Virus record (IMG/VR): IMGVR_UViG_3300042731_009256
Coordinates: 1-23,826 of that record
From: a virus
Length of the DNA: 23,826 nucleotides
Strand: one strand, 5' to 3'
Each line of letters opens with the position of its first letter. Position 1 is the stretch's first letter. The position numbers and the translations under genes are program-made. Of the stretch, positions 4,039-17,612 are shown piece by piece. The notes beneath the pieces were generated by a model. It did no database searches, was not told the origin of the DNA, and saw only the letters and a program-made list of their open reading frames with translations.

Positions 4039-4063
4039 CTGTAACCTCCTGGTTGTGAATGGT

Positions 4064-4102: not shown

Positions 4103-4103
4103 C

Positions 4104-4197: not shown

Positions 4198-4199
4198 GC

Positions 4200-4478: not shown

Positions 4479-4512
4479 CGGGTCATACCTCCTGGGGGTG
4501 ATGGGCAGGTTT

Positions 4513-4581
4513 CCCTGCTGCAGGGCCAGGCCGGGGTCCTGGCGCTGCAGCAGGGGGAGACGGGGTCCAGGCGTCTCCCCC
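4513..4581 (-). repeat. Spacer hairpin module between array genes
   Basis: There are two adjacent perfect stems. CCCTGCTGCAG (4513-4523) pairs with 4545-4555 and encloses an inner CCAGG/CCTGG pair. GGGGGAGACG (4553-4562) pairs with 4572-4581. The inner CCAGG...CCTGG is the part shared with the other spacers, while the outer arms are specific to this one. The stems overlap by three bases. Confidence 0.75.
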
Positions 4582-4589
4582 TGCGTGGC

Positions 4590-4919
4590 CTACTCGTTGG
4601 GGTCGTATTCTCCCCCACAGGTTGCACAGTGTACGGTCTGCGCAGGCGTCCATGTCAGGCAGTCCATGCGGCGTTCACCACAGGTCGGGCAGGCTGTCGA
4701 GCGGAGCACGAGGCTCTCGTCCATCGCGGCTTGTACCTTGACGGCCAGGCCGGCGATGGTTTCTGCCTGCAGGACGCAGTACCGAACCGGGTTCGCTGTG
4801 TACCGGATTTCTTCGCGCAGGGCTGTGTACCGCTGGCGTAGGAATTCCAGGTTGGCGAGTAGGATGTTGAGCTCTGCCTCTGAGAGCTCCAGGTGAATGG
4901 GGATTGCGTTCATCGTCAT
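4590..4919 (-). CDS. Small zinc-ribbon protein
   Basis: A 109-residue protein with an N-terminal helical region (residues 13-70, coiled-coil-like, L/E/A-rich) and a C-terminal four-cysteine zinc ribbon: C77-x2-C80 and C98-x2-C101 (CPTC ... HCATC), with an extra C87. Such ribbons bind nucleic acid or protein partners; the exact role is not readable. The start MTMNAIP at 4919 follows CCCAGGAGGTATGACACG. A longer frame to 5012 would run through the neighbouring gene and was rejected. Only 43 bases separate it from the upstream gene, a gap with the ribosome block but without the large hairpin. Confidence 0.82.
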   Translation of the reverse strand: MTMNAIPIHLELSEAELNILLANLEFLRQRYTALREEIRYTANPVRYCVLQAETIAGLAVKVQAAMDESLVLRSTACPTCGERRMDCLTWTPAQTVHCATCGGEYDPNE

Positions 4920-4962
4920 CGTGTCATACCTCCTGGGCATGTGATATGTGTAGGGCTTGCCC

Positions 4963-5154
4963 CTACTGTTGGGCGAGATGCTTGTGTTCAATCTCTCTCT
5001 CGCCGATGCCAACGACTTGAATTCTCCATGTGGTCTTGTGCTTTATGTTCGCGAGTACGATGCCGGCGTGGCCTTTGTATTCTCCGCCGACGATCTGGAC
5101 AGTGTCTCCCTCGCGAATTCCATGGACTTCAATCACTTTGCCTAATCCTTTCAT
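4963..5154 (-). CDS. Small KOW/SH3-like barrel protein
   Basis: A 63-residue protein whose core, REGDTVQIVGGEYKGHAGIV, matches the KOW pattern: a hydrophobic strand, then G-x-Y/F-K-G then G-x-V. This pattern is found in NusG, ribosomal L24 and related RNA- or ribosome-binding proteins. The family usually binds RNA or RNA polymerase partners, so a role in phage transcription or translation is possible but inferred. The ATG follows CCCAGGAGGAAGAAC. A 17-bp hairpin spacer precedes it. The length is that of a single barrel, with no NusG N-terminal domain. Confidence 0.75.
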   Translation of the reverse strand: MKGLGKVIEVHGIREGDTVQIVGGEYKGHAGIVLANIKHKTTWRIQVVGIGEREIEHKHLAQQ

Positions 5155-5177
5155 GTTCTTCCTCCTGGGTTGGGATT

Positions 5178-5271
5178 GTAGGGTTGCCCCTACCGCATCC
5201 CCAGGCCGGCGATCTGGCGATCGCTTGGGTGAGCTCCTGGGGATGCGGTAGGCGGGGAGCGCGGGCTCCCC
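5178..5271 (-). repeat. Spacer hairpin module with perfect 17-bp stem
   Basis: CCTACCGCATCCCCAGG (5189-5205) pairs perfectly with 5236-5252. GGGGAGC (5254-5260) pairs with 5265-5271 across a GCG-containing loop. A third hairpin, GTAGGG with CCCTAC at the SAS-proximal edge (5178-5194), shares bases with the large stem, so the two cannot form together. The loop of the large stem contains GCGATCGC. Confidence 0.85.
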
Positions 5272-5280
5272 TGCCTACAG

Positions 5281-5550
5281 TTAGGCGATCGGCTCGCCAT
5301 CGATTTCGACTGCCTGCATGACCGAGCAGGCTCGCTGGAGGATCGTCCCATCTGGCGCTGCCAGCAGGAAGGCGGGCTCCGTGCTGCCATCGGCGGGGAA
5401 CCGGTGCATGTACGTGGCCAGGACTCTGTATCCTGCTTCGCGGTCCAGGTCCGATGTCAGGAAGATCCCGCTTCCGCTATAGGGGGCCGGCTTAACTCGG
5501 ACGATCATCGTGGTGAAGTGGGTCGTGATTTTGTCGACTTGTCTCGTCAT
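5281..5550 (-). CDS. Hypothetical protein in the leftward array
   Basis: An 89-residue soluble protein, strand-rich at the start (TTHFTTMIVRVKPAPYSG) and with a short segment AAPDGTILQRACSVMQAVEID near the C-terminus that looks like a beta hairpin. The start MTRQVDK at 5550 is fixed by CCCAGGAGGTATGACACG upstream. The longer frame to 6084 overlaps two genes and was rejected. Its start overlaps the stop of the upstream gene by ATGA, so these genes are coupled even though a full ribosome block is also present inside that gene's end. Function unknown. Confidence 0.75.
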   Translation of the reverse strand: MTRQVDKITTHFTTMIVRVKPAPYSGSGIFLTSDLDREAGYRVLATYMHRFPADGSTEPAFLLAAPDGTILQRACSVMQAVEIDGEPIA

Positions 5551-5981
5551 CGTGTCATACCTCCTGGGTGGTATTTCTCGACGTGGTATCCACATCCCCC
5601 TGGGTAACCCTGCCCGTAGGTGTCTACCCAGGAGCAGAGGGCGCGATCGAATCCTCCGCTTCCTGGAGGAGGTCCGTGCCATGCTCCTGCGATTTCCTGG
5701 GCTCCGGGTCGGGGCGAGTAGGCGGGTGGATACGTGCGGATCACTACATGCTCGGCATCTGGTGGGATGGCCGGGTCGGGTTCGAGCAGTCCTGCCTGCG
5801 TCAGGATCTGCTCCAGCGAATCGGCGAGGATGAAGCGCAGGTCTGTCATTTCCTCGTCGATGGTGGCCAGGTCGGCGGGGCTGGCGGTATCGACCTGCTC
5901 GCCGAGCTCGTGCAGGCGTTCGTAATACCTGCGCAGGCCGACGAGGAGACCGTCCTTTAGGGTGAGGGTGTGGGTGATCAT
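5547..5981 (-). CDS. Hypothetical protein in the leftward array
   Basis: A 144-residue protein. The N-terminal 70 residues are helical (VGLRRYYERLHELGEQVD, then an acidic helix with TIDEEMTDLRFILADSLEQI). The C-terminal half is Pro/Gly-rich with few strands, and its last 12 codons contain the ribosome block of the next gene. Its own start uses GGAGGATCTG, not the shared block, and overlaps the preceding stop by ATGA. It is therefore the middle of a three-gene coupled set (5281-6367) that lacks hairpin spacers. Function unknown. Confidence 0.72.
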   Translation of the reverse strand: MITHTLTLKDGLLVGLRRYYERLHELGEQVDTASPADLATIDEEMTDLRFILADSLEQILTQAGLLEPDPAIPPDAEHVVIRTYPPAYSPRPGAQEIAGAWHGPPPGSGGFDRALCSWVDTYGQGYPGGCGYHVEKYHPGGMTR

Positions 5982-6367
5982 CAGATCCTCCGTCTCTCCC
6001 GTGCGAAGCTGAATGCTGCTCCGGACTCTGGCAGCGGGTCCGCCTGCGGCTCGATTGGCTTCCCGTTGGTATCGGGCTGCTCATCGTCGGGCAGCCAGGC
6101 CAGGTTGCCCCACTCCACTTGATCGGTCATGATGCTGACGCGATTATGGGTGGGCAGCCAGGTCTGGACGAAGGCGTGGTCCTGGGGGCCGGGTCCGCCG
6201 AACTTGGCCAGGATCGTGGCGTCGGTGATGTGGGCTCCTTCGGTGTCATCCTCAGCGTCTACGATCGCCATGGCTTGAAGCTGGACTTTGGCATCCTTCA
6301 TCCAACTTGGCTTCTCTCCGGTGTACCGGTAGAAGCGACCGAACTCGACTCGTGTTTGCTCATCCAT
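5981..6367 (-). CDS. Hypothetical protein heading a coupled three-gene set
   Basis: A 128-residue protein. It starts acidic and aromatic (RVEFGRFYRYTGEKPSWM), continues with a strand-rich region (KVQLQAMAIVDAED, HAFVQTWLP, NRVSIMTD), and ends with a Pro-rich then basic tail. The start at 6367 has two purine-rich sites in tandem (AGGAGGTATGGAGGTAAGAC before ATG); the array block is the distal one. Upstream lie a promoter-like repeat (6401-6439) and a 28-bp palindrome (6447-6474), so this gene may begin a separate transcript. Function unknown. Confidence 0.75.
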   Translation of the reverse strand: MDEQTRVEFGRFYRYTGEKPSWMKDAKVQLQAMAIVDAEDDTEGAHITDATILAKFGGPGPQDHAFVQTWLPTHNRVSIMTDQVEWGNLAWLPDDEQPDTNGKPIEPQADPLPESGAAFSFARERRRI

Positions 6368-6400
6368 GTCTTACCTCCATACCTCCTGGGTGTTTGGTGG

Positions 6401-6439
6401 TCTACTATATAAACGGGCGGAGGGCCGGTTTCCTTCAGT
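6401..6439 (-). promoter_or_regulatory. Leftward promoter-like repeat, copy 2
   Basis: On the minus strand TATAGT (6404-6409) follows 17 bases after GAAACC (6427-6432), the same architecture as the copy at 4064-4102. The 15 bases CTACTATATAAACGG are identical in both, and CTGAAG sits just upstream of the -35 side in both. A 28-bp palindrome starts 15 bp further upstream. The downstream gene starts about 37 bases from the -10 hexamer. Confidence 0.55.
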
Positions 6440-6446
6440 CGGCGCT

Positions 6447-6474
6447 CTATCCGTTTGGCTAGTAAACCGGATAG
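6447..6474. repeat. 28-bp imperfect palindrome, copy 1
   Basis: CTATCCGTTTGGCT then AGTAAACCGGATAG; the half-sites match in 11 of 14 positions. It agrees with copy 2 in 21 of 28 positions and with the complement of copy 3 in 22 of 28. It lies just upstream of a leftward promoter-like repeat, as expected of an operator or activator site. Confidence 0.65.
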
Positions 6475-6487
6475 CAGTTGGGGAGCT

Positions 6488-6560
6488 CCCAACCCCAGGG
6501 CCAGGCGGGTCGTCCTGGTCCTGGGGTTGGGGGGCAGGAGGGTGGGCATCCTCCTGCCCC
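6488..6560 (-). repeat. Spacer hairpin module between array genes
   Basis: CCCAACCCCAGG (6488-6499) pairs perfectly with 6520-6531 and encloses a second CCAGG/CCTGG pair. GGGGCAGGAGG (6531-6541) pairs with 6550-6560. The arms differ from all other spacers, yet both hairpins and the CCCAGG edge are kept. Confidence 0.78.
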
Positions 6561-6578
6561 TTGCCCCTGGGTGTTGGC

Positions 6579-7214
6579 CTACTCGTAGGCACCGAGGCGC
6601 GTCAGGGCCGGCGTGGGGTCGATGGGCACTTCGTGCGTATTGTGCCAGCTATCGACTCTGACCGGCATGCCGGCATCGATGAAGCGTTGGAGATCCTCAT
6701 ATCTGCTGAGTTTGGCGAACTCGGCGCAGAGGAGCGGCTTGGCGGCTTCGGCGTCTAGGGCGAGGCAGTCGACCGTGATGTTCTGGCTCCCTGGGTTCCA
6801 TTCTTCGAAGCTGTCCATGAAGCGGGCCAGGGAGGGGTCTGGTACGTCCTCGAGGGGCACGTGCTGGTGCAGGCGAGGGTCATAGAGTGACTCGACGAAG
6901 GTGCGGCTGCGGGCTAACTTCTCCAGCATCTGCCTGGGGGATATCGGTGCATAGGGCGCAGCGTCCGTCTTGAGGGCTCGCTTGGCCCACTTCGTTGCGA
7001 TGGTGAGGTCCTCCAGGTGTCTGGCCGTTACCTCGACCTGCATGCCGTACCAGTCCAGCGGGCGTTTGTGTCTCTCGCTATGCCAGATAATCTCGATCCG
7101 CGAGTTGTTGGCGAAGCGATCCTGTGGGTACAGGGTGAGGCGGAAGGTGGCATAGTCAGAGTTGCGCGGGAACTCGATGTGCGCTTCATAGTAGCATACG
7201 GCTTTCTCGGTCAT
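6579..7214 (-). CDS. Hypothetical protein, largest of the array
   Basis: A 211-residue protein. The N-terminal half is a beta-rich domain (VCYYEAHIEFPRNSDYATFR, then RIEIIWHSE, then MQVEVTARHLEDL). The C-terminal half is helical (SPRQMLEKLARSRTFVESLY; RYEDLQRFIDAGMPVRV). The YYEAHIEF and ATFRLTLYP strands resemble a small ferredoxin-like or double-psi fold, but no catalytic motif is visible. The ATG follows CCCAGGAGGTAAGACG, identical to the site of the first array gene. The GC-rich spacer to its left has full hairpins. Function unknown. Confidence 0.8.
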   Translation of the reverse strand: MTEKAVCYYEAHIEFPRNSDYATFRLTLYPQDRFANNSRIEIIWHSERHKRPLDWYGMQVEVTARHLEDLTIATKWAKRALKTDAAPYAPISPRQMLEKLARSRTFVESLYDPRLHQHVPLEDVPDPSLARFMDSFEEWNPGSQNITVDCLALDAEAAKPLLCAEFAKLSRYEDLQRFIDAGMPVRVDSWHNTHEVPIDPTPALTRLGAYE

Positions 7215-7239
7215 CGTCTTACCTCCTGGGTGAGGATCT

Positions 7240-7314
7240 GTAGGGCGTTGCCCTACCGTAACCCCAGGCCGGGGGTCCTGGAGTTATGGTAGGGAGGGAG
7301 CTCAGGCTCCCTCC
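7240..7314 (-). repeat. Spacer hairpin module, near-identical to the next
   Basis: GTAGGGC (7240-7246) pairs with GCCCTAC (7250-7256). CCCTACCGTAACCCCAGG (7251-7268) pairs with 7277-7294 with two mismatches or wobble pairs. GGAGGGAGC (7293-7301) pairs with 7306-7314. The first two stems share bases 7251-7256 and are mutually exclusive. The third stem overlaps the last codons and stop of the upstream gene. Confidence 0.85.
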
Positions 7315-7559
7315 GTCCCAGGGAGCGGTAGAGGCCGGCTGTGTTGGCCGAGGCTCCTACCATCTGGCCGGTATATCGTCGGGCCCATGCCCAGGCGTCT
7401 GTACAATCTCACGGCCAGTTCGGCGCAGGCGATCATGCTGCCGTGGTACTCGATGCGGCTGCTGCTGACGGGATCCCGGCTTACCAGTTTATACATCGTG
7501 GCGACGTCGTTGGCTTTGAGGCTGTTCTCGATGATGGCTGCGAGGTCGATGGTGTCCAT
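7302..7559 (-). CDS. Hypothetical small protein in the leftward array
   Basis: An 85-residue protein with a helical first half (DTIDLAAIIENSLKANDVAT, then CAELAVRLYRRLGMGP) and a Pro/Arg-rich C-terminus. The last residues (PGTEGA) are encoded by one arm of a terminator-like hairpin, so the end of the reading frame may have been set by module insertion or recombination. The start follows CCCAGGAGGTATCAG. Near-identical spacers lie on both sides, which makes the gene a unit flanked by direct repeats that could be lost or swapped by recombination. Function unknown. Confidence 0.72.
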   Translation of the reverse strand: MDTIDLAAIIENSLKANDVATMYKLVSRDPVSSSRIEYHGSMIACAELAVRLYRRLGMGPTIYRPDGRSLGQHSRPLPLPGTEGA

Positions 7560-7582
7560 CTGATACCTCCTGGGTGGGTTAT

Positions 7583-7657
7583 GTAGGGCGTTGCCCTACC
7601 GTAACCCCAGGCCGGGGGTCCTGGGGTTATGGTAGGGAGGGAGCGCGGGCTCCCTCC
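7583..7657 (-). repeat. Spacer hairpin module, near-identical to the previous
   Basis: GTAGGGC (7583-7589) pairs with 7593-7599. CCCTACCGTAACCCCAGG (7594-7611) pairs with 7620-7637, one wobble. GGAGGGAGC (7636-7644) pairs with 7649-7657. It matches 7240-7314 at all but a few positions, and the arms are also shared with 9010-9052. Confidence 0.87.
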
Positions 7658-7664
7658 GTCCCAT

Positions 7665-8150
7665 CTATCGTCCTTCCCATTTGACCAGGCATGCCCACTG
7701 TTTCCAGCTAAGCGGGCTCGGGTATTGGCGTTCCTCCGGGTCCGTCTCCAGCCAGGTGATGATCTGGTCGCAGAGGCTGGCTCGGAAGTCCGAGCGGAAT
7801 TGCTTGGTCTTGAGTAGGCGGGCGGCTGCTCGGCGCTGGTTGGGGTGTACGTCCGGGCTGGCCATCCATCGCAGCCAGTGTTCTGGCCAGTCCGGGTCGG
7901 CGATCGCGAAGGTGTCTTGCCAGGCGAGGGGGTCTTTCAGCCATTCTTCCGGCGTCAGCCAGGCGGGCAGGTCGATCGCTCGGACTTCCCACTTGGTGAA
8001 GGTTACGGGTCGCCAGTCGTCGGAGCTCAGGATCCCTTGTTTTGTCTCCGTGATGTCTACCTGCTCCGTATAGACTGCGACCGGGCGGCGAGGCGTTCCC
8101 ATTTCCTCGCCATCGTGGCGGTAGAGGATCGCGTGTGTTACGGTATCCAT
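7665..8150 (-). CDS. Hypothetical Trp-rich protein in the leftward array
   Basis: A 161-residue, Trp-rich soluble protein. The N-terminal third is beta (THAILYRHDGEEMG, VAVYTEQVDITETK). The remainder is helical with repeated W-L/W-x pairs (PAWLTPEEWLKDP, PEHWLRWMASPDVHPNQRRA) and a basic helix (AARLLKTKQFRSDFRASL). The ATG follows CCCAGGAGGTATGACCG. A second, out-of-frame ATG inside this ribosome block opens a 149-codon overlapping frame, which I treat as a shadow because its composition follows the real frame's third positions. Function unknown. Confidence 0.78.
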   Translation of the reverse strand: MDTVTHAILYRHDGEEMGTPRRPVAVYTEQVDITETKQGILSSDDWRPVTFTKWEVRAIDLPAWLTPEEWLKDPLAWQDTFAIADPDWPEHWLRWMASPDVHPNQRRAAARLLKTKQFRSDFRASLCDQIITWLETDPEERQYPSPLSWKQWACLVKWEGR

Positions 8151-8186
8151 CGGTCATACCTCCTGGGTGTGTGGGTGTAGGGGCTC

Positions 8187-8211
8187 GGTGGGGGAGGATA
8201 TCTCCCCCACC
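8187..8211 (-). terminator. Terminator-like hairpin, reduced spacer
   Basis: GGTGGGGGAG (8187-8196) pairs perfectly with 8202-8211 around a GATAT loop. This spacer has only this hairpin and the ribosome block; the large CCCAGG-edged stem is missing. No U-run follows on the leftward RNA, so termination would need Rho or would be partial. Confidence 0.6.
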
Positions 8212-8221
8212 TTGCCTTTAC

Positions 8222-8419
8222 TCATACCTCATCCCCCTCCTTGCCCGTCTCCCTTTCGGCTGGCCTGGGTCGGGCCGGCTTTAGGGCGGCGAGCAGATTG
8301 TCCACTCTCGCGCGGGCGATGCCGAGGCGCGTGGCGATGTCGAGGAGTGTTTCGTTTGCGTCTCGCCATTGCTGCTCGAAGGTGGCGGCATCGGTTGGCT
8401 TTTGGTCGTTCTCAGCCAT
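8222..8419 (-). CDS. Small protein with possible helix-turn-helix
   Basis: A 65-residue protein. Residues about 21-45 (NETLLDIATRLGIARARV then DNLLAALK) fit a helix-turn-helix: a helix, a G-I turn, then a second helix ending LLAAL. The remainder is a basic, Pro-rich tail followed by acidic residues. If correct it could be a DNA-binding regulator, possibly of the palindromes described here; that is inference. The start at 8419 was chosen because AGGAGGTATGAGG places ATG at normal spacing. The ATG two codons upstream sits only one base from the site. Alternative: a short coiled coil. Confidence 0.68.
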   Translation of the reverse strand: MAENDQKPTDAATFEQQWRDANETLLDIATRLGIARARVDNLLAALKPARPRPAERETGKEGDEV

Positions 8420-8445
8420 CCTCATACCTCCTGGGTGTGGTATGT

Positions 8446-8551
8446 GTAGGGGCTTGCCCCTACCGGATCCGCAGGCCGGGGGCGTGGATCCCGTTGGGGT
8501 ATCTTTGCTCCCGTTCTGCGGATGCGGTAGGGGGGGAGCGCGGGCTCCCCC
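8446..8551 (-). repeat. Spacer hairpin module between array genes
   Basis: GTAGGGG (8446-8452) pairs with CCCCTAC (8457-8463). CCTACCGGATCCGCAGG (8459-8475) pairs with 8515-8531 with one internal mismatch and a long loop. GGGGGAGC (8532-8539) pairs with 8544-8551. This copy has CCGCAGG in place of the usual CCCCAGG, matched by CTGCGG on the other arm. Confidence 0.8.
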
Positions 8552-8565
8552 TCCTACGCTGCGGA

Positions 8566-8862
8566 TCAGGCTCCTTCCTCCCATCGTTCCTGTACGCTGG
8601 TTACTTCTATACGTTCGACTTCGTGTGCGGCGTGGGTTACGTGCGAGGTATGGCCTTCTCCCCTGGCCGGTTTCCAGGTCCAGGGCGTGACCATGGTCAC
8701 TTGTTCGCCTGCGACCGTCGTTACCTCCAGGATCTGGCCGGTTGCCTTGATCCGGGCCAGTTCGCCGACTTTCGGCGTTCCGGGTCTTACTTCCATGGTG
8801 TGCGTGGTGACGATCCCGTTTTCGCGCTTCGATTCGGCGAGGGCCACCATCTTGATTGCCAT
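8566..8862 (-). CDS. Hypothetical small beta-rich protein
   Basis: A 98-residue protein dominated by strands: GIVTTHTMEVRPG, then VGELARIKATGQILEVTTVA, then EQVTMVTPWTW, and a final VERIEVTSVQ. The pattern VGELARIKATGQILEV resembles the first strands of a KOW/SH3 barrel without the Gly-Lys-Gly signature, so it may belong with the KOW-like gene at 4963-5154. The ATG at 8862 has ideal spacing (8 bases) from CCCAGGAGGT; the in-frame GTG at 8871 overlaps the site and was rejected. A His-rich loop (HTSHVTHAAH) could bind metal. Function unknown. Confidence 0.75.
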   Translation of the reverse strand: MAIKMVALAESKRENGIVTTHTMEVRPGTPKVGELARIKATGQILEVTTVAGEQVTMVTPWTWKPARGEGHTSHVTHAAHEVERIEVTSVQERWEEGA

Positions 8863-9009
8863 GCTGCTCACCTCCTGGGTGTGGGATTATAGGGCCCTAT
8901 CGCCGAGGGCTCTGCTACCGGCTCCGCGGGCTGCGGTGTTGGGGGGTTTGCGTCCGGTGGCCTAGACGGGGGTTGATCTGCCCGTCATCCCCTTCGGCTC
9001 GTGGTAGGG

Positions 9010-9069
9010 CCCTACCGTAACCCCAGGAGCGGGTCCTGGGGTTACGGTAGGGGGGAGCGTGGGCTCCCC
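9010..9069 (-). repeat. Spacer hairpin module with perfect 18-bp stem
   Basis: CCCTACCGTAACCCCAGG (9010-9027) pairs perfectly with 9035-9052. GGGGAGC (9052-9058) pairs with 9063-9069. Compared with the 5189-5252 stem, two positions differ and both partner bases have changed to keep pairing. The 213-base gap to the left also holds about 130 bases (8870-9005) with no gene and no clear structure beyond a short GGGCCC. Confidence 0.87.
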
Positions 9070-9075
9070 TCTACT

Positions 9076-9465
9076 CTAGATCAGTCTGGCCCATTGGGCC
9101 ATACCTCCGCGGGCCCAGTCCTGCGGGCGGGCTGTCGCGGCTATCTTGTCGGCGATGTCGTCGAGGCGATCGGCGAGGGCGCGTTGTTCGGTTCCCCAGG
9201 TTCCGGGCAGGTCGAAGGTGGCGGTTACGGGCAGGCATTTGTGTTCGCGTTTGGGGCTGATCGCGAAGGCGACCATCCTCCAGATATATGCGGTTTCTCC
9301 GCCTGCCGTTACTTGCCGGGTCGTGGGGTCGAAGGTGACTCGCGGCTTCGAGGCTCGCAGGCATCCTTTGTTCTTGCCTTGTGTGGCGATGATGCCTTGC
9401 GCGAGTGCGAGTTCGGCGGGTGTCAGGCTTGCCTTGCTCAGGTCGAGCTCGGGCATGTTGTACAT
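9076..9465 (-). CDS. Hypothetical protein, first gene of the leftward array
   Basis: A 129-residue protein. It has an N-terminal helix (SLTPAELALAQGIIATQ), a central beta region with two likely exposed Cys (GKNKGCLRASKPRVTFDP, then ETAYIWRMVAFAISPKREHK), and a C-terminal helix (ALADRLDDIADKIAATA). The WRMVAF core looks like a buried strand of a small alpha/beta fold. The ATG follows CCCAGGAGGTAAGACG. It is the first gene after the control region, and its ribosome site can be masked by an 8-base complement at 9510-9517. Function unknown; as the first gene it is a candidate early product. Confidence 0.8.
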   Translation of the reverse strand: MYNMPELDLSKASLTPAELALAQGIIATQGKNKGCLRASKPRVTFDPTTRQVTAGGETAYIWRMVAFAISPKREHKCLPVTATFDLPGTWGTEQRALADRLDDIADKIAATARPQDWARGGMAQWARLI

Positions 9466-9470
9466 CGTCT

Positions 9471-9572
9471 TACCTCCTGGGTGTGTTATGTAGGGCGTAA
9501 CCCTACCAGCAGGAGGTTAGGTCGGGTCTTGCTGCTCTACTGCCGGCAGTAGTGTCCTGCCTAATCTCCTGG
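9471..9572 (-). promoter_or_regulatory. Leader of first array gene with anti-ribosome-site element
   Basis: In the leftward RNA the ribosome block (plus-strand ACCTCCTG at 9472-9479) is exactly complementary to plus-strand CAGGAGGT at 9510-9517. That same stretch can instead pair with CCTAATCTCCTG at 9560-9571 (11 of 12). Between them lies the perfect palindrome CTACTGCCGGCAGTAG (9537-9552). A GTAGGG/CCCTAC hairpin is at 9490-9506. The two pairings exclude each other, as in a translational attenuator. Confidence 0.55.
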
Positions 9573-9589
9573 TGGTGGGGTTTCCCCCT

Positions 9590-10030
9590 TTCCCCCTATC
9601 CCCTCATTTTTCTTAATTCTCCCTCCAGGTTGGGGTGTTCGTTGGTATGTAGTTATGTATTAGTTCGCTTCTCGGTTTGTCCTGTCGTTGCCTGTCGGTC
9701 TTCTTGTCCGGGCCGTCCGATTCGGGTGGGCCCAGGCCGTCTGGCCAGATTTGCACTGTCGGGTGCGGGGGCTATGTTTTGGCTTTCGGCGTCCGGTTCC
9801 GGGCTGGTCGGGCCGGTTGGTTACTCCCTGGCCAGTCCTGGTTTTATCCCTCGCGGGTTAGGCTCGCGGCTCGCTTACTTGCCCCTTCGTGCTGTTGGTT
9901 GTTCAGGTTCCTGGTCTTGCTACTCGGTCCGTTTACTCGGCTCCGGTTTGTGTAGGCTTGGGGCGGCTCCCTGTCCTGCTTTTCCCCCTGCGTTGCTTCC
10001 TGTCTCCCTCTCTGCGTTGCGTTCTATCCT
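9590..10030 (-). other. Gene-free, T-poor leftward leader
   Basis: The plus strand here is strikingly poor in A and rich in T, so a leftward RNA would be purine-rich and poor in U. It has almost no ATG on the minus strand and stops in all minus frames. A 161-codon plus-strand frame covers it, but that frame has a biased Ser/Leu/Pro/Cys composition and no ribosome site, so I do not call it a gene. It lies between the AT-rich island and the first array gene, and is best read as a long unstructured 5' leader. Confidence 0.55.
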
Positions 10031-10120
10031 ACTATAACAAATTATACTGCATCAAGGTTAACAACGGGTATTGAAACCCCTAATAAACTATTAAAAATTT
10101 CCGTGTTTCGTAACTCTTTC
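10020..10120 (-). promoter_or_regulatory. AT-rich island with candidate leftward promoter
   Basis: This is the only clearly AT-rich stretch of the window. On the minus strand TGTTATAGT (from 10031-10036) fits an extended -10, and TATAAT occurs 10 bases upstream of it (10041-10046). No good -35 lies at 16-18 bp. The sequence TATAGTAG is shared with the two internal promoter-like repeats. A GTTAAC palindrome is also present. The alternative role is a DNA-unwinding element for replication. Confidence 0.45.
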
Positions 10121-10168
10121 AAATTGCCCCACCCTGCCGGGTTGAGCCACCACATTGCAGCCTGGGGG

Positions 10169-10196
10169 CTGTCCGTTTGGGTAGTTAATCGGGCAA
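10169..10196. repeat. 28-bp imperfect palindrome, copy 2
   Basis: CTGTCCGTTTGGGTAG then TTAATCGGGCAA; identical to copy 1 in 21 of 28 positions. It lies in the control region between the AT-rich island and the rightward promoter. The 10-bp palindrome GGGCATGCCC lies about 25 bp to its right. Confidence 0.6.
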
Positions 10197-10290
10197 CCTT
10201 CGCATAGTGACTAGGGCATGCCCCTGGCCATCGTCACGTCCTTGTCCACTGCCCGTCATCCATCTGCCACATTCTTGTCATCCTTTCTCG

Positions 10291-10325
10291 GACTTTGGTA
10301 AGACGAAAGTCAGGCAAAAGTCAGG
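10291..10325. promoter_or_regulatory. AAAGTC box cluster upstream of rightward promoter
   Basis: GACTTT (10291-10296) is inverted relative to AAAGTCAGG at 10306-10314 and 10317-10325. The two direct copies start 11 bp apart, about one helical turn. The cluster ends 34 bp before the -35 hexamer, a position suited to an activator or repressor. Confidence 0.5.
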
Positions 10326-10358
10326 TATCTTCCGGGCTTTTCGGGTACTTGGGGGGGA

Positions 10359-10387
10359 TTGACACCGAAACCGTTCTCGTGTATAAT
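10359..10387 (+). promoter_or_regulatory. Perfect-consensus sigma70-type promoter
   Basis: TTGACA (10359-10364), a 17-base spacer and TATAAT (10382-10387), all exact consensus. The start should fall near 10393-10395. It faces the lysis and structural genes but precedes the first rightward gene by about 400 bases. Confidence 0.9.
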
Positions 10388-10393
10388 GGGGAC

Positions 10394-10511
10394 GTCAAGC
10401 GCAACCTCCTGGGTGTGGTCCTCGTCCGTAGGGGTCCGATCGGTTGCGGGAGATGCCAGGAGCATCCTGGGTCGTTGTTCCTGCTCCTGGCCGTTCTTAT
10501 ACCCATTTTTT
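10394..10511 (+). ncRNA. Candidate antisense RNA or leader against the array ribosome sites
   Basis: An RNA from the consensus promoter would begin near 10394. It would carry AACCTCCTGGGTGTGG (10403-10418), the complement of the ribosome block shared by the leftward genes; up to 16 bases match exactly (the gene starting at 8419). Further on, GCCAGGAGC (10455-10463) pairs with 10483-10491 in a 9-bp stem, and T6 follows at 10506-10511 after a 14-base gap, so termination is possible but not canonical. CCAGGAG in the stem can also pair with the CTCCTGG of the anti-ribosome segment. Alternative: this is the relic of an array module that lost its gene, now simply part of a long leader. Confidence 0.45.
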
Positions 10512-10680
10512 GGTGTAGGGTGGGCGAGCGGGCGTGGCATCGGGGTTACTGTCTCGCTCGCCCACCCAGGAGCGCTGGTGGCGACGGGGCCGGCGTTTCC
10601 CTCCTGACAGTGCGATGGCGGTTTCCAGGTCCTCCGCCATCGCAGAAAAAGCGCAGGGCTCTCCCTGCTTCATAATAGCA
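10512..10680. repeat. Hairpin-rich leader without a gene
   Basis: GGGTGGGCGAGCG pairs perfectly with CGCTCGCCCACCC (about 10518-10566). GCGATGGCGG pairs with CCGCCATCGC (about 10612-10644). GCAGGG pairs with CCCTGC just after it. The architecture resembles the array's spacer modules but lies right of the rightward promoter. No reading frame here has a ribosome site. Confidence 0.55.
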
Positions 10681-10792
10681 GTCCGGCTCGGGCTTTAGGG
10701 CCTACGATCTGGATTCTGCCCAGGAACTCGTACACACGGGCGGTCACAGCATTTGCTGTGGCGGACTCGTGTGTTTTGCTTTGGGGGTATCG

Positions 10793-11506
10793 ATGGGCAA
10801 TCCAAGGTTGGAGGCGCTGCTCGGCCAAGTCGAACAGACTCTGGTGGCACTCGACGAGGGTGCTGCCGATCTGCAGAGCGTCCGGGAGATCCTGGCCACA
10901 CGGCTGCGTGACTATCGGATGACGGCTCTGCCCCAGGTTCCCTGGACTCGAGATCTGCGCTCCGTTCTCCCCTCCAATACCCACTGTCCGGCTCCCCTCC
11001 AGAATGGCTGGTGGCGGCGCTCCCTCGATCAGATCGAATCCGTCTGTTTCCATCATACCTGCTCCCATTCTCCAGAGGCGTTTACTGCCTGGTACATCAC
11101 CAAGGATGGTGGTCGGCCAGGCTGTTGTTATACCATCTGGATCGCCGAGACCGGGGAAGTCCTGCTCTGCGGCGACCTGGAGGCCGGCTGTTGGCACAAC
11201 CACAATGGCCATCAGAACGTCGACCTATCGGTTGGCCTGGCCGGCAACAAATCGGTGTATCCTCCTTCCCCTGCGCAGATGCGGTCCGCCATTCAGGTGG
11301 CAGCCTGGGCGATTCTCTCTCCCATGTTGCCGGGGGTCACTTCCCTGGGGCAGATCATGGGCCACTGCGACTATCCCCTGTGTAAACCTGGCAAACCTCA
11401 CGCGACGTCCTGCCCAGGCTGGCTTGTCCCACAGACGGGTAAATGGCGGTCCGCTTTGTTTGGTGGCCTGGCCGAGTTCCTGGCCGACTTTCTAGGATCC
11501 AAATAA
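10793..11506 (+). CDS. N-acetylmuramoyl-L-alanine amidase (endolysin), Amidase_2/PGRP-like
   Basis: A peptidoglycan amidase expected to cut the bond between N-acetylmuramic acid and L-alanine at lysis. In the 237-residue protein, residues 1-40 form a short helical or coiled-coil N-terminus. The catalytic domain follows: CFHHTCSH with H87/H88, GCCYTIWI with Y113, a GDLEAGCWHNHNGHQN segment (128-142), MGHCDYP with H191, and ATSCPGW with C207. H87/88, H191 and C207 fit the zinc-ligand pattern of T7-lysozyme-type amidases. No signal peptide is seen, so export depends on a holin, and a membrane protein gene follows. The ATG at 10793 was chosen over GTG at 10769 because GGGGGT precedes it, though that site is weak. 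The domain call is firm. Confidence 0.88.
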   Translation: MGNPRLEALLGQVEQTLVALDEGAADLQSVREILATRLRDYRMTALPQVPWTRDLRSVLPSNTHCPAPLQNGWWRRSLDQIESVCFHHTCSHSPEAFTAWYITKDGGRPGCCYTIWIAETGEVLLCGDLEAGCWHNHNGHQNVDLSVGLAGNKSVYPPSPAQMRSAIQVAAWAILSPMLPGVTSLGQIMGHCDYPLCKPGKPHATSCPGWLVPQTGKWRSALFGGLAEFLADFLGSK

Positions 11507-11524
11507 GGGAGGCATCTATCGCGC

Positions 11525-11543
11525 AAATTCACAAAAATTCACA
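11525..11543. repeat. Short direct repeat before the holin-like gene
   Basis: AAATTCACA occurs at 11525-11533 and again at 11535-11543, one helical turn apart, in a small AT-rich patch between the amidase and holin-like genes. It may be a protein-binding site or simply an A-rich leader that keeps the following ribosome site open. Confidence 0.35.
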
Positions 11544-11594
11544 ATTTCAACGTGTTATCGGGTTGGTTCCCTATTTCATCAAGGAGGTGGTCCT

Positions 11595-12020
11595 ATGTTG
11601 CGCAGTCGAAAGTGGAGCGTTCGGGCGGTCAAGATCCTGGCCATCGCGCTGGCGTTGGTCATCGGGATCCTCGTTCCCCTGGTGCTGGCCAAGGGCCCGA
11701 GCGGGCCCGTGCTGCAGGGCGAGGACGAGCTCCCCATGCTGGAGGATATGATCATCGGTGGGATCCCGGTCATCCTGCTCATCGTCCTGATCGTGCAAAT
11801 CTTCAAGGACTGGGTGGGCGTCCCAGGGCAATACCTGCGCTGGATATCCCTGGGCCTGGGTCTTGCTTTCGGGATCCTCTATCAATACGGTATGGGCTGG
11901 CCGGAGGAACCGTGGGGATGGGTCGTGTTCGTCGTCCGGCTGTTGTTCGGGGTCCTGTCGAGCTCCCTGGTTGACTTCACTCGTGACGTGGCGTCTCGCG
12001 TTGGCCTGAATAGACGTTAG
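11595..12020 (+). CDS. Holin-like membrane protein
   Basis: A 141-residue protein with four likely membrane segments: residues 12-32, 53-70, 83-101 and 107-126. The first follows a basic N-terminus (LRSRKWSVRAVK) and could be a signal anchor. The loop 33-51 is acidic, and the C-terminus is charged and positive (RDVASRVGLNRR). Size, number of segments, basic tail and position directly after an amidase fit a phage holin, which opens the inner membrane for the endolysin. The family is not recognised by sequence. The start is clear: AAGGAGGTGGTCCT precedes ATG. A non-lysis membrane role remains possible. Confidence 0.72.
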   Translation: MLRSRKWSVRAVKILAIALALVIGILVPLVLAKGPSGPVLQGEDELPMLEDMIIGGIPVILLIVLIVQIFKDWVGVPGQYLRWISLGLGLAFGILYQYGMGWPEEPWGWVVFVVRLLFGVLSSSLVDFTRDVASRVGLNRR

Positions 12021-12037
12021 CTGACGGGAGGTATGCC

Positions 12038-13645
12038 ATGCCGTGGGAGATCCGTCCAGAGGGGGGCCAATACTGCGTCTACCAGTCCGACACGGACGAG
12101 CTCGTCAAGTGCCATCCTAATCGGGCCGATGCCGTGGCTCACCTGCGGGCGTTGTATGCGAACGTCGACCACTCCGAGGCCGGCATGTGGATCGATCGCG
12201 GATTCTTCGTCGATCTATCGGGCCAGGATGGGTCCATAGCGCAGCGGGTGCTGGCCGGCGATCCCATCTGCATCATACCTCGTGGGATGTTCTGGCGTGA
12301 TGGCATGGCTCGCAACGTCGACGACCAGGCTGTCGACGAGTTCGTGGTCAACTATCGCGACCGGCTCGATCGGGGCCTGCGGCGCTCACGGCTCGCTGTG
12401 GATCAGGATCATAATGGCCGGGCACTTGGCTGGTATCAGGACGTGATGGCGCTCCCTGAAGGTGTGGGGTCGACGTTCCAATGGAATCGCGCTGGCCGGG
12501 AGGCGCTGGAGGCCAACGAGTTCGCTTACTTCTCGGCAACCGTCTACTGGCAGATGCGCGATCGCGTCACCAATCAAACGGTCAACAACGTGCTGGCCGG
12601 TGGGGCGCTCACGAACTATCCGTATTTCGGCGAGGCGACGGCGTTGTTCTGCCTCGCGACCGAGGCGGATGCCCCACCCATTTTCTATGCCGTCACTAAG
12701 ACGGGTCCGCATGGTGACCAGTTGCCGGCTCGGGCATACCTTGTCGTAGAGGATCCATCGAAGCCGAGCACGTGGCACTTGCCGGTCATGTCCTGGCGGG
12801 GCGGCAAACTTGTGTACGATCATAAGCTGATGGGCGCTGCGAAGGCATCGCTCACGGCTGAGGAAGGCCATCGCGGGAACCCGTATGAGGGCCCGCAAAA
12901 GGCCGAGGCGTTGGCTAAGCTCAAGCGTCTCTACGAGCGCGAGGGCTTGGAGTTTACTCTGGAAGAGGGAGGTTTTCCTATGTCCCAACAAGCTCCACTA
13001 CCAGGTGGGGAAAACGCGGATCAGGTCCTGGCCGGGCTCCGGCAGTTCTTTGCGGGGCTCATCCCTGGATCTGGCCGATCGGATGCCCCACCCACCAGTC
13101 CGTCCGCCGAGGTCCTGGCGCTGCAGGCGCAGGTCGAGGCGCTGAGCGAGCAGGTCGCGGGGTTCGGCGACCTGCCGGATCAGTTGTCTGCGGCGCAGGC
13201 GCAGGCGGATGAATATCGGGCCCAGGTCGAGACTCTGCAGGGCGACCTGGGGAGTGAGCGCGAGGCTCGCCAGATCGAGCGGTTCCGGCAGATGGCGGGA
13301 TCCGACTATGCTCACTTGCCCGTCCAGATCGATGCGCTTGGCGAACATCTGCGCTGGCTTTACTCGCGGGATACGGAAGAGGAACAACCCCACGCGACGT
13401 TCTTCTCCGATCTGCTGCGCAGGGCCGACGAGATGTTCGTCGATGCGTTCCGCGAGCGCGGGTCGTCTCGCGCTGGCGGCGATGGGGCCATGGTGCGGAT
13501 CAACGCTGCCATCGAGGAATACCAAGAGGCGCATGCCAATACAACCCGGGAGGAGGCCATGGAGGCTATCTTCCGGGCACAGCCTGATCTGTACGAGGCT
13601 TACCAAACGGAGCGCAGCCAGGCTGCGCAGGGGGTGTCCCAATGA
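12038..13645 (+). CDS. Mu I-like prohead protease with C-terminal scaffold
   Basis: A maturation protease that cleaves head proteins during capsid assembly, joined to scaffold. The protein has 535 residues. Residues 24-43 (KCHPNRADAVAHLRALYANV) match an N-terminal segment seen in phage proteases. Residues 84-200 match the Mu gpI pattern: an FWRDGMARNVD strand, LAVDQDH (H125), a GWYQDV strand, FAYFSATV (S166), and GGALTNYPYF near 188-197. Candidate catalytic residues H125 and S166 are inferred from the family pattern. After residue 314 the protein is Gln/Ala/Glu-rich and coiled coil, typical of scaffold. The start follows GGGAGGT. The stop overlaps the decoration gene start (ATGA). Confidence 0.85.
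   Translation: MPWEIRPEGGQYCVYQSDTDELVKCHPNRADAVAHLRALYANVDHSEAGMWIDRGFFVDLSGQDGSIAQRVLAGDPICIIPRGMFWRDGMARNVDDQAVDEFVVNYRDRLDRGLRRSRLAVDQDHNGRALGWYQDVMALPEGVGSTFQWNRAGREALEANEFAYFSATVYWQMRDRVTNQTVNNVLAGGALTNYPYFGEATALFCLATEADAPPIFYAVTKTGPHGDQLPARAYLVVEDPSKPSTWHLPVMSWRGGKLVYDHKLMGAAKASLTAEEGHRGNPYEGPQKAEALAKLKRLYEREGLEFTLEEGGFPMSQQAPLPGGENADQVLAGLRQFFAGLIPGSGRSDAPPTSPSAEVLALQAQVEALSEQVAGFGDLPDQLSAAQAQADEYRAQVETLQGDLGSEREARQIERFRQMAGSDYAHLPVQIDALGEHLRWLYSRDTEEEQPHATFFSDLLRRADEMFVDAFRERGSSRAGGDGAMVRINAAIEEYQEAHANTTREEAMEAIFRAQPDLYEAYQTERSQAAQGVSQ
12980..13645 (+). CDS. Nested scaffold protein from an internal start
   Basis: Within the protease gene, AGGGAGGTTTTCCT precedes an in-frame ATG at 12980 (residue 315, MSQQAPLPGG). 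This site is as good as those of separate genes. The product would be 221 residues: a Pro/Gly-rich start, then a coiled coil rich in Gln/Ala (EVLALQAQVEALSEQVAG and AQAQADEYRAQVETLQGD), then an acidic C-terminal helix. This arrangement is known from lambda C/Nu3 and Mu I/Z, where the short form is the internal scaffold. Expression of the nested form is inferred. Confidence 0.7.
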   Translation: MSQQAPLPGGENADQVLAGLRQFFAGLIPGSGRSDAPPTSPSAEVLALQAQVEALSEQVAGFGDLPDQLSAAQAQADEYRAQVETLQGDLGSEREARQIERFRQMAGSDYAHLPVQIDALGEHLRWLYSRDTEEEQPHATFFSDLLRRADEMFVDAFRERGSSRAGGDGAMVRINAAIEEYQEAHANTTREEAMEAIFRAQPDLYEAYQTERSQAAQGVSQ

Positions 13646-14037
13646 CCGCTGTTCCTCAAGGTGCTGAGATCCGTGTGAGCGTCGAGGCCGGCGAAGATCT
13701 GACGGGCAAGCAGTTCTACTTCGTCGAGATCGATACCGGCAAGCTGGCGCTGTGTGATGCGGCGACCGACCAACCCTTTGGGGTTCTCCAAGATAACGAC
13801 GTCGTGTCAGGCCGGATGGGCGAATGCGTGGTGTTGGGCCCGTCCAAGGTCGTCGCAGATGGTGCTATCACCAAGGGCAACCTGATCGGCACTTCTGCCG
13901 ATGGGCAGGCCGACGTCAAGGTTCCTGGTACGGATGTCACGGAGTATGTCGCGGGGATCGCTCTCGAAGATGCGACCAACGCAGGCGAGGTCCTGTCCGC
14001 GCTCATCAACTGTGTCAGTCCGTTCCGGGCGGCATAG
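13642..14037 (+). CDS. Capsid decoration (cement) protein, DUF2190-like
   Basis: Probably binds the outer surface of the mature capsid to stabilise it. The 131-residue protein is almost all beta. It carries the pattern of small decoration proteins: an N-terminal DLTGKQFYFVEID strand, FGVLQDNDVVSGRMGECVVL, VVADGAITKGNLIGTSADGQ and VAGIALEDATNAGEVLSALI. It sits between the protease/scaffold and the capsid gene, the usual place. It starts within the stop of the protease gene (ATGA), so translation is coupled. The family call rests on pattern and position. Confidence 0.82.
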   Translation: MTAVPQGAEIRVSVEAGEDLTGKQFYFVEIDTGKLALCDAATDQPFGVLQDNDVVSGRMGECVVLGPSKVVADGAITKGNLIGTSADGQADVKVPGTDVTEYVAGIALEDATNAGEVLSALINCVSPFRAA

Positions 14038-14084
14038 GTTCACTGGCTTCATCGGTGGACATCTATCTATAGAAGGAGGCTGCC

Positions 14085-15065
14085 ATGCCTACTGATCAAC
14101 CAGGTTCGGGCGAGGTCCATGTCGACCAGTTGCTCACGGACGTGTCTGTGGGGTTCGTCAATACTGTCTACATCGCTGGCCTGTGGTTCCCCATGGTGCT
14201 GGTCATGAAACGATCGGACATCGTTCCGAAGTATACGAAGAGTGCGTGGTTCCGCGACGAGGCCAAGGAGTTGGGCGAGCGTGAGGCTCCGCCTGTCTCC
14301 GGCTACAACGTCGACGTGACCGATACCTACTACTGCCGGGAGTACGGTATGGGGCACTTTATCGGCGATGCGCGTCGGGCCAACACCGATCTGCCGTTCG
14401 ATGCAGACCGGGATGGGGCCAGGTGGGTGACGGACAAAATGCTCATGAAGGAAGAGCGGCTCGTCGTCTCCGGCTTCTGGAAAACCGGTGTGTGGGGAGC
14501 GGATAAGACGGGCGGCGTCGACTTCACCAAGTGGTCCACTTACGCTACCAGCACGCCAATCCAGGATCTGCGCGGGTTCGGACGAACGATCCGGCGTGGC
14601 CTGGGTGGGCTCGCTCCCAACACGGCTATCTTCGGCGATCTGACGTGGGACGTGCTGGCCGATCATCCCGACTTCCTCGATCGCATCAAGTATGGCTCGG
14701 GATCCGACTCCCCTGCCATGGTCACTCCCAACCTCGTGGCGCAGTTGCTCGGGTATCAGAAGGTCCTCGTCGGTGCGTCCGTGTATACCGCCAGTCCGGA
14801 GGGCACTGCCGAGGCATCGGTGACGTACACTCCGAACTGGGACGACGATGGCTGGTTGGGATACGTGGCTCCCAGGCCGGGGCTGTTCAACCCGACTGCC
14901 GGCTACAACTTCACGTGGAAAACCGCTTTCGGCGGTCCGCGTTACATCAAGAACCGGCGCGATCCGCTGTCGGATAAAGGCTTTCTCATCGAGGCGTTCC
15001 AGTTCATGGATCATCACGTCTGCGCCAAGGATGCCGGCTTGTTCATGTCGGATGCAGTGGACTAG
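14085..15065 (+). CDS. Major capsid protein, HK97-fold
   Basis: Forms the icosahedral shell. The 326-residue protein has the layout of Mu-type and related HK97-fold capsids: an N-terminal arm (DQLLTDVSVGFVNTVYIAGLWFPMV), a strand with KRSDIVPKYTKSAW, an extended-loop segment, DTYYCREYGMGHFIGDARRAN, a long helix (EERLVVSGFWKTGVWG), and a C-terminal domain with QLLGYQKVLVGASVY and AFQFMDHHV. There is no long N-terminal delta domain, as expected where the scaffold is separate. The start follows AAGGAGGCTGCC. Cleavage sites cannot be assigned. Confidence 0.86.
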   Translation: MPTDQPGSGEVHVDQLLTDVSVGFVNTVYIAGLWFPMVLVMKRSDIVPKYTKSAWFRDEAKELGEREAPPVSGYNVDVTDTYYCREYGMGHFIGDARRANTDLPFDADRDGARWVTDKMLMKEERLVVSGFWKTGVWGADKTGGVDFTKWSTYATSTPIQDLRGFGRTIRRGLGGLAPNTAIFGDLTWDVLADHPDFLDRIKYGSGSDSPAMVTPNLVAQLLGYQKVLVGASVYTASPEGTAEASVTYTPNWDDDGWLGYVAPRPGLFNPTAGYNFTWKTAFGGPRYIKNRRDPLSDKGFLIEAFQFMDHHVCAKDAGLFMSDAVD

Positions 15066-15073
15066 GAGGTCCT

Positions 15074-15442
15074 ATGGCTCAGGGCGACTATGTTCAGGCT
15101 CTGCGTGACTTCCGGTATGACGACCAGGTCGGCGAGGTCCATACCGGTCAGGTGTTCCAGTTAGGTGGTCACATCAACGACGATGGCCTGCTTCGTCATC
15201 GGTTCCTGGCTCCCATCGAGGATGTCCCAACGACCAAGGCCAAGCGGGAAGCGTGGCTCGCTTCCCTGCCTACGTGCGGGGAATGTGGGGCCATGTTCCT
15301 GCAGGAATGGCAGCGGGATCGATGCGGGGAGGCTCACGGGCTCTCCGCCGAAGAGCGCGAGAGGCAAGCCAGGGAGCGGGCTCACGACCGCTACGAGCGC
15401 ACTGTTGCTCCCGAGAGGCGTGTCATGCGCGTCGGTGCGTGA
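15074..15442 (+). CDS. Hypothetical protein with CCCH-type zinc site
   Basis: A 122-residue protein. The first 45 residues look like a small barrel (YDDQVGEVHTGQVFQLGGHI). Residues 68-88 hold C68-x2-C71, then C84 and H88, a plausible single zinc site. A strongly charged helix (EERERQARERAHDRYERT) and a basic tail follow. It lies directly after the capsid gene, where small head-completion or capsid-associated proteins are common. The start follows AGGAGGTCCT. I do not recognise the family. Confidence 0.75.
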   Translation: MAQGDYVQALRDFRYDDQVGEVHTGQVFQLGGHINDDGLLRHRFLAPIEDVPTTKAKREAWLASLPTCGECGAMFLQEWQRDRCGEAHGLSAEERERQARERAHDRYERTVAPERRVMRVGA

Positions 15443-15523
15443 CCACCTGCTGGTAATCAATCGCATAGGCCGATGGCTTTCCCCACCCATCTGTATCTGC
15501 CTGTCTGCCTGCTGGCGGGGGTG

Positions 15524-15551
15524 CTATCGGTTTAACTAACCAACGGGATAG
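15524..15551. repeat. 28-bp imperfect palindrome, copy 3
   Basis: CTATCGGTTTAACT then AACCAACGGGATAG, ending 8 bases before the ATG of the neck gene at 15560. It agrees with copy 4 in 22 of 28 positions and with the complement of copy 1 in 22 of 28. The ends CTATC and GATAG are kept. Confidence 0.65.
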
Positions 15552-15559
15552 GTGGTGTT

Positions 15560-16123
15560 ATGGCGCTGACCGACCTGCAGAGGCTCCGGCTCAAAATCGC
15601 CGATCGGGCGAAGGCTGTCATCGACGAGGCGTTGGGGGAGGGTACGGGCTCCAAGACTGTATACCAATGTCGTCTCTCTCCCATCGTCGAGGCGACCGAT
15701 CGGATCTATGTCGACGGGGTCCTCCAAACTCGGGATGTCGACTACACCATCGACGAATCCCTGGGGCTCGTCACTTTCGTCGCGGCTCCCGCTTCCGGGG
15801 CCGAGATCACTGCCGACTATCAGTGGGTTACGTTCACGGACGAGGAGCTCCAGGATATGCTCGATCAGGCCGGCTCCCTGGTCCTGGCGGCGATGGAGGC
15901 TATCCGTTGCCTGCTGGCCGACAGTGAGCGGTTCCTGAAGTATACGTTCGGCCAGGAGAGCGTGGATCGGTCCACTGCGAGGGCTGCGCTGCAGGATCTG
16001 CTCGACGATCTGCGTCGGGCGAAGGGCGGGCCCGTTGGGTTCGTGTTAGCAGATACGCCAGAGCGTGAAGAGCTCATGGCTCCCTTTGTAGAGCAAGACG
16101 AGGAGTTGACCGATGTCGATTAA
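15560..16123 (+). CDS. Head-tail connector (neck, adaptor) protein
   Basis: Probably the adaptor ring bound to the portal. The 187-residue protein begins with a helix (DLQRLRLKIADRAKAVIDEA) and continues with a beta-rich insertion (IYVDGVLQTRDVDYTIDESL, GAEITADYQWVTFTDEELQD). A helical half follows (MLDQAGSLVLAAMEAIRCLL). The mixture of helix and TFTDEEL-type motif, and its place between capsid and stopper-like genes, fit phage adaptor proteins. Position carries much of the weight. The start has only a modest site (GGATAGGTGGTG) overlapping the 28-bp palindrome. Confidence 0.72.
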   Translation: MALTDLQRLRLKIADRAKAVIDEALGEGTGSKTVYQCRLSPIVEATDRIYVDGVLQTRDVDYTIDESLGLVTFVAAPASGAEITADYQWVTFTDEELQDMLDQAGSLVLAAMEAIRCLLADSERFLKYTFGQESVDRSTARAALQDLLDDLRRAKGGPVGFVLADTPEREELMAPFVEQDEELTDVD

Positions 16124-16445: not shown

Positions 16446-16456
16446 GGAGGTGTACT

Positions 16457-16900: not shown

Positions 16901-16909
16901 GGAGGGGCT

Positions 16910-17597: not shown

Positions 17598-17612
17598 CAG
17601 AGGAGGTTTCCC

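Follow-up and report, generated by a model that had tools for sequence, protein, structure and literature searches.

Genes and features at the locus

The window, IMG/VR record IMGVR_UViG_3300042731_009256 in its entirety (23,826 bases), carries Mu-like head and lysis genes. Between the portal gene and the endolysin, small genes of unknown function form a leftward array; a common ribosome-site block precedes most of them, and they are non-structural and probably early. The rightward late block opens with the endolysin, whose true start is probably an internal one beyond the terminator-like hairpin that precedes it, and continues through holin and head genes (Table 1). The host is probably a member of the Chloroflexota, as an Anaerolineae MAG contains a relative of the window's head protein. 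The first leftward gene (9076-9465, minus strand) encodes a protein whose family is widespread among viral contigs, at ~35-50% identity in L121-L130, and has no PHROGs match; a search of this gene against 396 genomes of the MAG's class found nothing. Long GC-rich inverted repeats of the CCCTACCGTAACCCCAGGA/TCCTGGGGTTACGGTAGGG type, mutually related in sequence, occupy many intergenic gaps of the array between 4500 and 9060, for example at 9010-9052, 7251-7294, and 8457-8533.

The shared block, CACACCCAGGAGGT, occurs 16 times in the window at up to three mismatches, against 0.86 expected, a count attained by none of the shuffles. The minus strand contains CCCAGGAGG 13 times, where 0.24 copies are expected; the plus strand lacks it. 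Rightward genes of the window carry AGGAGG without the preceding CCCA.

Table 1. Positions of the features at the locus and of comparable hairpins in other phages
Feature	Position	Strand	Remarks
Portal	17-1924		Mu-like head gene
Ribosome-site block TCACAACCAGGAGGT	4044-4058	-	
Ribosome-site block TCACCCCCAGGAGGT	4487-4501	-	
Ribosome-site block ACATGCCCAGGAGGT	4928-4942	-	
Ribosome-site block CCCAACCCAGGAGGA	5160-5174	-	
Ribosome-site block TACCACCCAGGAGGT	5559-5573	-	
Ribosome-site block AAACACCCAGGAGGT	6381-6395	-	
Ribosome-site block CCTCACCCAGGAGGT	7221-7235	-	
Ribosome-site block ACCCACCCAGGAGGT	7565-7579	-	
Ribosome-site block ACACACCCAGGAGGT	8158-8172	-	
Ribosome-site block CCACACCCAGGAGGT	8426-8440	-	0 mismatches
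Ribosome-site block CCACACCCAGGAGGT	8870-8884	-	0 mismatches
Ribosome-site block ACACACCCAGGAGGT	9472-9486	-	of leftward gene 9465-9076; protein kept in L003, L093, L096, L121
Consensus sigma-70 promoter P_R, TTGACA-17-TATAAT	10359-10387	+	exact; TTGACA 10359-10364, 17-nt spacer, TATAAT 10382-10387; expected start about 10392-10394
Predicted 5' stem-loop of P_R RNA	10400-10448	+	arms CGCAACC 10400-10406 and GGTTGCG 10442-10448
Anti-ribosome-site block ACCTCCTGGGTGTGG	10404-10418	+	complement of leftward block, mostly in loop
Second hairpin (9-10 bp), then T6	10455-10511	+	arms GCCAGGAGCA 10455-10464 and TGCTCCTGGC 10482-10491; T6 10506-10511
Terminator-like hairpin ACACACG...CGTGTGTTTTGCTTT with T-rich tail	10732-10783	+	just before endolysin; same position in L003, L093, L096, L121
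Endolysin (Amidase_2)	10769-11506	+	first rightward gene
Late block: holin, Mu-like head protease, small open frame, major head protein	11595-15065	+	gene starts: holin 11595, protease 12038, major head protein 14085
Cluster K anti-SAS hairpins	L190:33650-33720 (Adephagia 58650-58720), L191, L192, L194-L199, L201-L204		
Freshwater-group hairpins	L184:1599-1740, L186:7168-7310, L136:2558-2700		plus eight more contigs

A consensus promoter followed by a complement of the block

P_R agrees with the sigma-70 consensus (TTGACA, 16-18 nt, TATAAT) at 12 of 12 positions, as an earlier note on this DNA had claimed, and is the sole 12/12 site found by a promoter scan of positions 4000-20000. About 10 nt past its expected start lies the complement of the leftward block that the same note had placed there: plus-strand ACCTCCTGGGTGTGG reads on the minus strand as CCACACCCAGGAGGT, with 0 mismatches to two of the array copies. 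The claimed 16-of-16 match with the gene at 8419, here given as starting at 8418, holds for the shifted 16-mer ACCTCCTGGGTGTGGT, the 16-mer originally given (AACCTCCTGGGTGTGG) matching at 15 of 16 positions. For any given promoter, CCCAGGAGG would occur by chance in a 13-nt-wide interval behind it with a probability of about 1e-4.

Downstream of the complement, the note named a 9-bp hairpin and T6. The hairpin is real; T6 was rejected as a terminator, lying 14 nt beyond the stem, a gap that is not canonical, and receiving no call from a terminator scan. With termination at T6 unsupported, a leader of about 340-380 nt is the more likely form of the P_R RNA, whose 3' end would probably fall near 10775 at the better terminator-like hairpin before the endolysin. 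Corresponding leaders in five genomes, the window and its relatives L003, L093, L096, and L121, end 210-460 nt from their starts at a hairpin, GC-rich and followed by T-rich sequence, that adjoins the first rightward gene. All five display the layout of a lambda pR'-type late leader: a late promoter, a short leader, and a terminator before lysis or head genes. Several relatives share a motif, CTGGCCCNGGAACA...ACACGGGC, 5' of the pre-endolysin hairpin (L003:5920-6010, L093:6720-6780, L096:6560-6640, and window 10700-10790), which is possibly part of termination or antitermination control.

The leader is predicted to open with a stem-loop

In all five genomes, the first 60-80 nt of the leader are predicted to fold into a stem-loop that places the complement in the loop, with stems of differing sequence. 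The loop location expected of the pairing region of an antisense RNA is thus predicted in each, with the block partly paired in some genomes, the window among them: the complement is unpaired at 0.37-0.56 there and at 0.82 in L121. A flank helix test yielded p values of 0.11 (window), 0.011 (L003), 0.17 (L093), 0.025 (L096), and 0.003 (L121), combining to a Fisher p of 8e-5 over the five genomes, with neither the window nor L093 significant alone. A test of total folding energy is weaker (combined 0.006), and because the folding energy of the window leader with the block held open is ordinary, the case for structure rests on the helix test. Rfam covariance models, including that of the C4 antisense RNA, give no match in the window or its relatives.

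The complement changes together with the array

P_R counterparts are present in all four relatives, and the near-identical sibling contig L002 is identical to the window across 150 nt from the promoter. L003, with an endolysin 51% identical to that of the window, bears TTGACT-17-TATAAT followed by TTACCTCCTGGGTCGATCC and a leftward array with ACCCAGGAGG. L093 and L096, retrieved by a head-protein search (78 and 73% identical), bear TTGACA-17-TATAAT followed by TCCTCCTGGGTC and CCCTCCTGGGTC, respectively, and leftward arrays of CCAGGAGGA. The complement begins 17-22 nt past the -10 box in the window and these three relatives. Single bases also track the array: the base after GGAGG is A in the L093 array and the complement has the matching T, the window having T and A; L096 has a mismatch at this base (C opposite A).

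L121, a 79.8-kb record found through alignment of the first array gene, uses a different leftward ribosome site, AGAAAGGAA, with ten copies on the array strand and none on the other strand of the whole record. Its consensus promoter is followed by ACAGAACC-TTCCTTTCT-...-GGTTCTGT, in which TTCCTTTCT, the complement of its own site, is enclosed by a perfect 8-bp stem, its distance from the -10 box equalling that in the others. Since L121 combines another array site with a matching complement, the two have changed together, the RNA-target covariation expected of an antisense RNA and seen here between L121 and the CCCAGGAGG group. By reading, the rightward genes of L121 are ParB-like, terminase, and portal; those of all five genomes are lysis, head, or packaging genes. 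Four of the five Chloroflexota-type cases share ancestry.

With a match defined as a perfect complement of at least 8 nt, 45% of the leftward ribosome sites of L121 match its own loop, compared with 0-6% of those of the other phages, whereas the loops of the window, L003, L093, and L096 match 50-92% of their own leftward sites and 5% of those of L121. Own rightward ribosome sites are matched at 0-15% in all five genomes. The mean loop-array duplex energy in the four CCCAGGAGG genomes is -21 to -30 kcal/mol, compared with -14 to -17 kcal/mol for random windows, the best-scoring of which fall inside the array itself, and -19 to -22 kcal/mol for rightward sites. The loops consequently show extended complementarity to the putative target ribosome sites above background.

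The earlier note had named a promoter kept without its complement in relatives as the observation that would speak against its antisense-RNA interpretation. The three divergent relatives with the CCCAGGAGG array keep both elements, and L121, with a different array, bears the correspondingly changed complement. L094, the only relative to combine the promoter with no complement, also keeps the leader, terminator, and lysis gene; its leftward genes carry AAAGGAG without CCCA, i.e., it has no CCCA-type array. The promoter, the complement, the array, the conserved position of the stem-loop, and the change of the complement with the array are all features of the DNA itself, and at this level they support the antisense-RNA interpretation.

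Elsewhere among viral contigs, the block alone occurs at 79 loci, nearly all single-copy. Matches to a pattern of promoter plus ACCTCCTGG or CCTCCTGGG (L004-type loci, L008, and L111-L116) have no array and were treated as chance; L008, despite a similar-looking stem (GTTAC/GTAAC), has only a single block at the locus. Relatives further removed, which have just the capsid or the first array gene in common (L097, L098, L101-L106, L108, and L123-L131), showed no comparable promoter-near site.

Comparable hairpins in Cluster K mycobacteriophages and a freshwater-type group

SAS repeats (GGGATAGGAGCCC) stand at the starts of non-structural genes in Cluster K mycobacteriophages, with one opposite-orientation copy in four phages, and their role was left open (Pope 2011, PMC3203893); they were still termed ill-defined in 2024. 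The SAS sequence is not found upstream of gene starts in the window, whose block is a different element of the same design. In Adephagia and CrimD, the lone opposite SAS (plus strand GGCCTCCTATCCC, Adephagia 58682-58694) sits in a hairpin loop. The hairpin has a 10-bp outer stem and is located where genes 92 and 93 (numbering of Adephagia, Cluster K1) are more than 400 bp apart; late transcription starts between these genes according to published RNA-seq (PMC11373665), and no consensus promoter is visible in the gap. Adephagia can be grown in the laboratory host M. smegmatis and has already been subjected to targeted gene deletion. The anti-SAS hairpin region was found in 130 phage records. 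Across 12 phages, 91.6% of its stem cells pair, compared with 39-46% when slid, and the loop is nearly unchanged while two stem pairs are altered on both sides. Amohnition has two mismatches between the loop and its SAS, and Pixie (Cluster K3), with 18 SAS copies, lacks the anti-SAS. By analogy, we regard the Cluster K anti-SAS hairpin as a parallel case of the window design.

In a group of freshwater-type phages (GC 0.37), a consensus promoter is followed by a hairpin, GGGCAG-TCTTTTTTCCTTTCTCTT-CTGCCC, and AGAAAGGAA serves as a ribosome site almost solely on the opposite strand, at 7 genes in one record and 5 in another, which suggests a third group with the same design. About 30 nt 3' of this hairpin, just before a ribosome site, L135, L147, L162, and others conserve CACCTGAGCATGTG...AAACTGCTCAT. 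This element looks like an H-type pseudoknot, composed of CAC/GTG and GAGCA/TGCTC pairings, with ACAC/GTGT changing to GCAC/GTGC. L136 has no Rfam match.

Proposed mechanism and alternative explanations

From these features we infer transcription, pairing, repression, timing, and direction of control. It is quite probable that the late leader RNA pairs with the ribosome sites common to the early genes and thereby represses their translation at the onset of late transcription. P_R would drive the rightward late operon (endolysin, holin, and head genes), its leader RNA starting near 10394 and probably ending mostly at the pre-endolysin hairpin, or else continuing into the late genes. The first 55 nt would form a stem-loop displaying ACCUCCUGGGU, complementary to the shared block ACCCAGGAGGU of about a dozen leftward, probably early genes. 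Because this pairing would cover the Shine-Dalgarno sequence of each target gene, the onset of late transcription would repress translation of the whole early set. The CCCA that additionally precedes GGAGG in the block, not found in rightward genes, may act as an address restricting the RNA to early messages. As the loop is the complement of the shared ribosome site and is kept as such where the site has changed, one RNA may silence many early genes.

The block could instead be a DNA binding site of a phage repressor, stoperator-like, with one site at the late promoter and many between the leftward genes. The repeats are indeed asymmetric, in one orientation, and mostly intergenic, and an altered repressor specificity could make the array and the promoter copy change together in L121. 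Against this, the array copies sit at Shine-Dalgarno spacing and hold a Shine-Dalgarno core in both versions (GGAGG and AAAGGA), while the promoter copy lies at +10 to +25, off the -35 and -10 boxes. It is flanked by inverted repeats, unrelated in sequence from genome to genome, and is invariably antisense in the late transcript, Cluster K included; we consider a repressor site quite unlikely. Control in the reverse direction, in which the folding of the late leader is altered by abundant early messages from the leftward genes that pair with it, for example to delay read-through of the pre-endolysin terminator, is unlikely as well. It would give a role to the terminator-like hairpin right before the late genes in the leaders of five genomes, and the complement could pair inside the leader with ACCCAGGAGC at 10564-10573. 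The place of this internal partner, however, is not conserved in relatives, and a single early site would be enough for such control, yet about a dozen genes retain the extended block.

The copy at 10404 could also be an ordinary leftward ribosome site, belonging to a small unannotated leftward gene or its relic: it is perfect, shares its strand with the other blocks, and is followed by a TTG at 5-nt spacing. This TTG (10398), the only start at near-normal spacing in the window, opens just 25 codons, the ATG of L096, 4 nt away, opens 16, and L003 and L121 have no start at normal spacing. No leftward promoter is apparent, and neither the hairpins nor the constant location behind a consensus rightward promoter would be explained; as no frame is conserved (L003, L093, and L096), this reading was rejected as highly improbable. 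A cis-acting antitermination or leader element (put-like) of the late operon, with the ribosome-site match as a by-product, would suit a stem-loop that opens a long leader closed by a terminator-like hairpin. It predicts neither a loop that tracks the change in array sequence nor the anti-SAS loop of Cluster K, and is very unlikely.

Returning to repression by the leader RNA, we lean towards a broader view of it as a previously undescribed, convergent layer of control, in which a late-leader loop antisense to the ribosome site of a whole early set would have arisen independently in Chloroflexota-type and Cluster K phages, and perhaps in the freshwater group, and would explain SAS. In agreement with the earlier note, the open-access literature searched contained no description of a phage RNA aimed at a shared ribosome site. 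If correct, a late-leader loop acting on a shared early site would constitute a regulon-wide early-to-late switch without a protein and would provide a function for the Cluster K SAS repeats; base-pairing roles would become conceivable for further late-leader RNAs, such as lambda 6S.

Comparison with known systems

Cluster A mycobacteriophages have stoperators, DNA sites to which the repressor binds (PMC9283540). They resemble the window blocks in comprising many asymmetric sites and one near a promoter but, unlike these, are not themselves ribosome sites; a stoperator system is disfavoured by the Shine-Dalgarno spacing of the blocks and by the hairpins. Also close in design is the Cluster K SAS, a short asymmetric repeat with a Shine-Dalgarno core, conserved beyond the need of the ribosome at a dozen or more non-structural genes and accompanied by a lone opposite-orientation copy away from gene starts. 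It differs in sequence and belongs to unrelated phages, and an RNA hairpin had not been described for it before.

C4 of P1/P7 and sar of P22 are phage antisense RNAs that each cover the ribosome site of one message. Like these, lambda OOP is a phage antisense RNA acting on a single message (PMC12197685). All three are small phage RNAs pairing with a phage message, as proposed here, but small phage RNAs of the kind that covers ribosome sites have so far been known with one target each, whereas the window loop matches a site common to about a dozen genes.

The lambda pR' leader (6S RNA) consists of a late-operon promoter, a short RNA, and a terminator just before lysis and head genes, the anatomy also seen in the window leader. 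Its function was unexplored according to a review (PMC12197685). For lambda 6S a base-pairing role is not known, while the window leader carries a proposed pairing loop. Host-encoded sRNAs of the RsaE/RoxS type use a C-rich loop to pair with the Shine-Dalgarno regions of many messages. Their targets are scattered, whereas here the putative RNA and its targets share one phage genome and change together.
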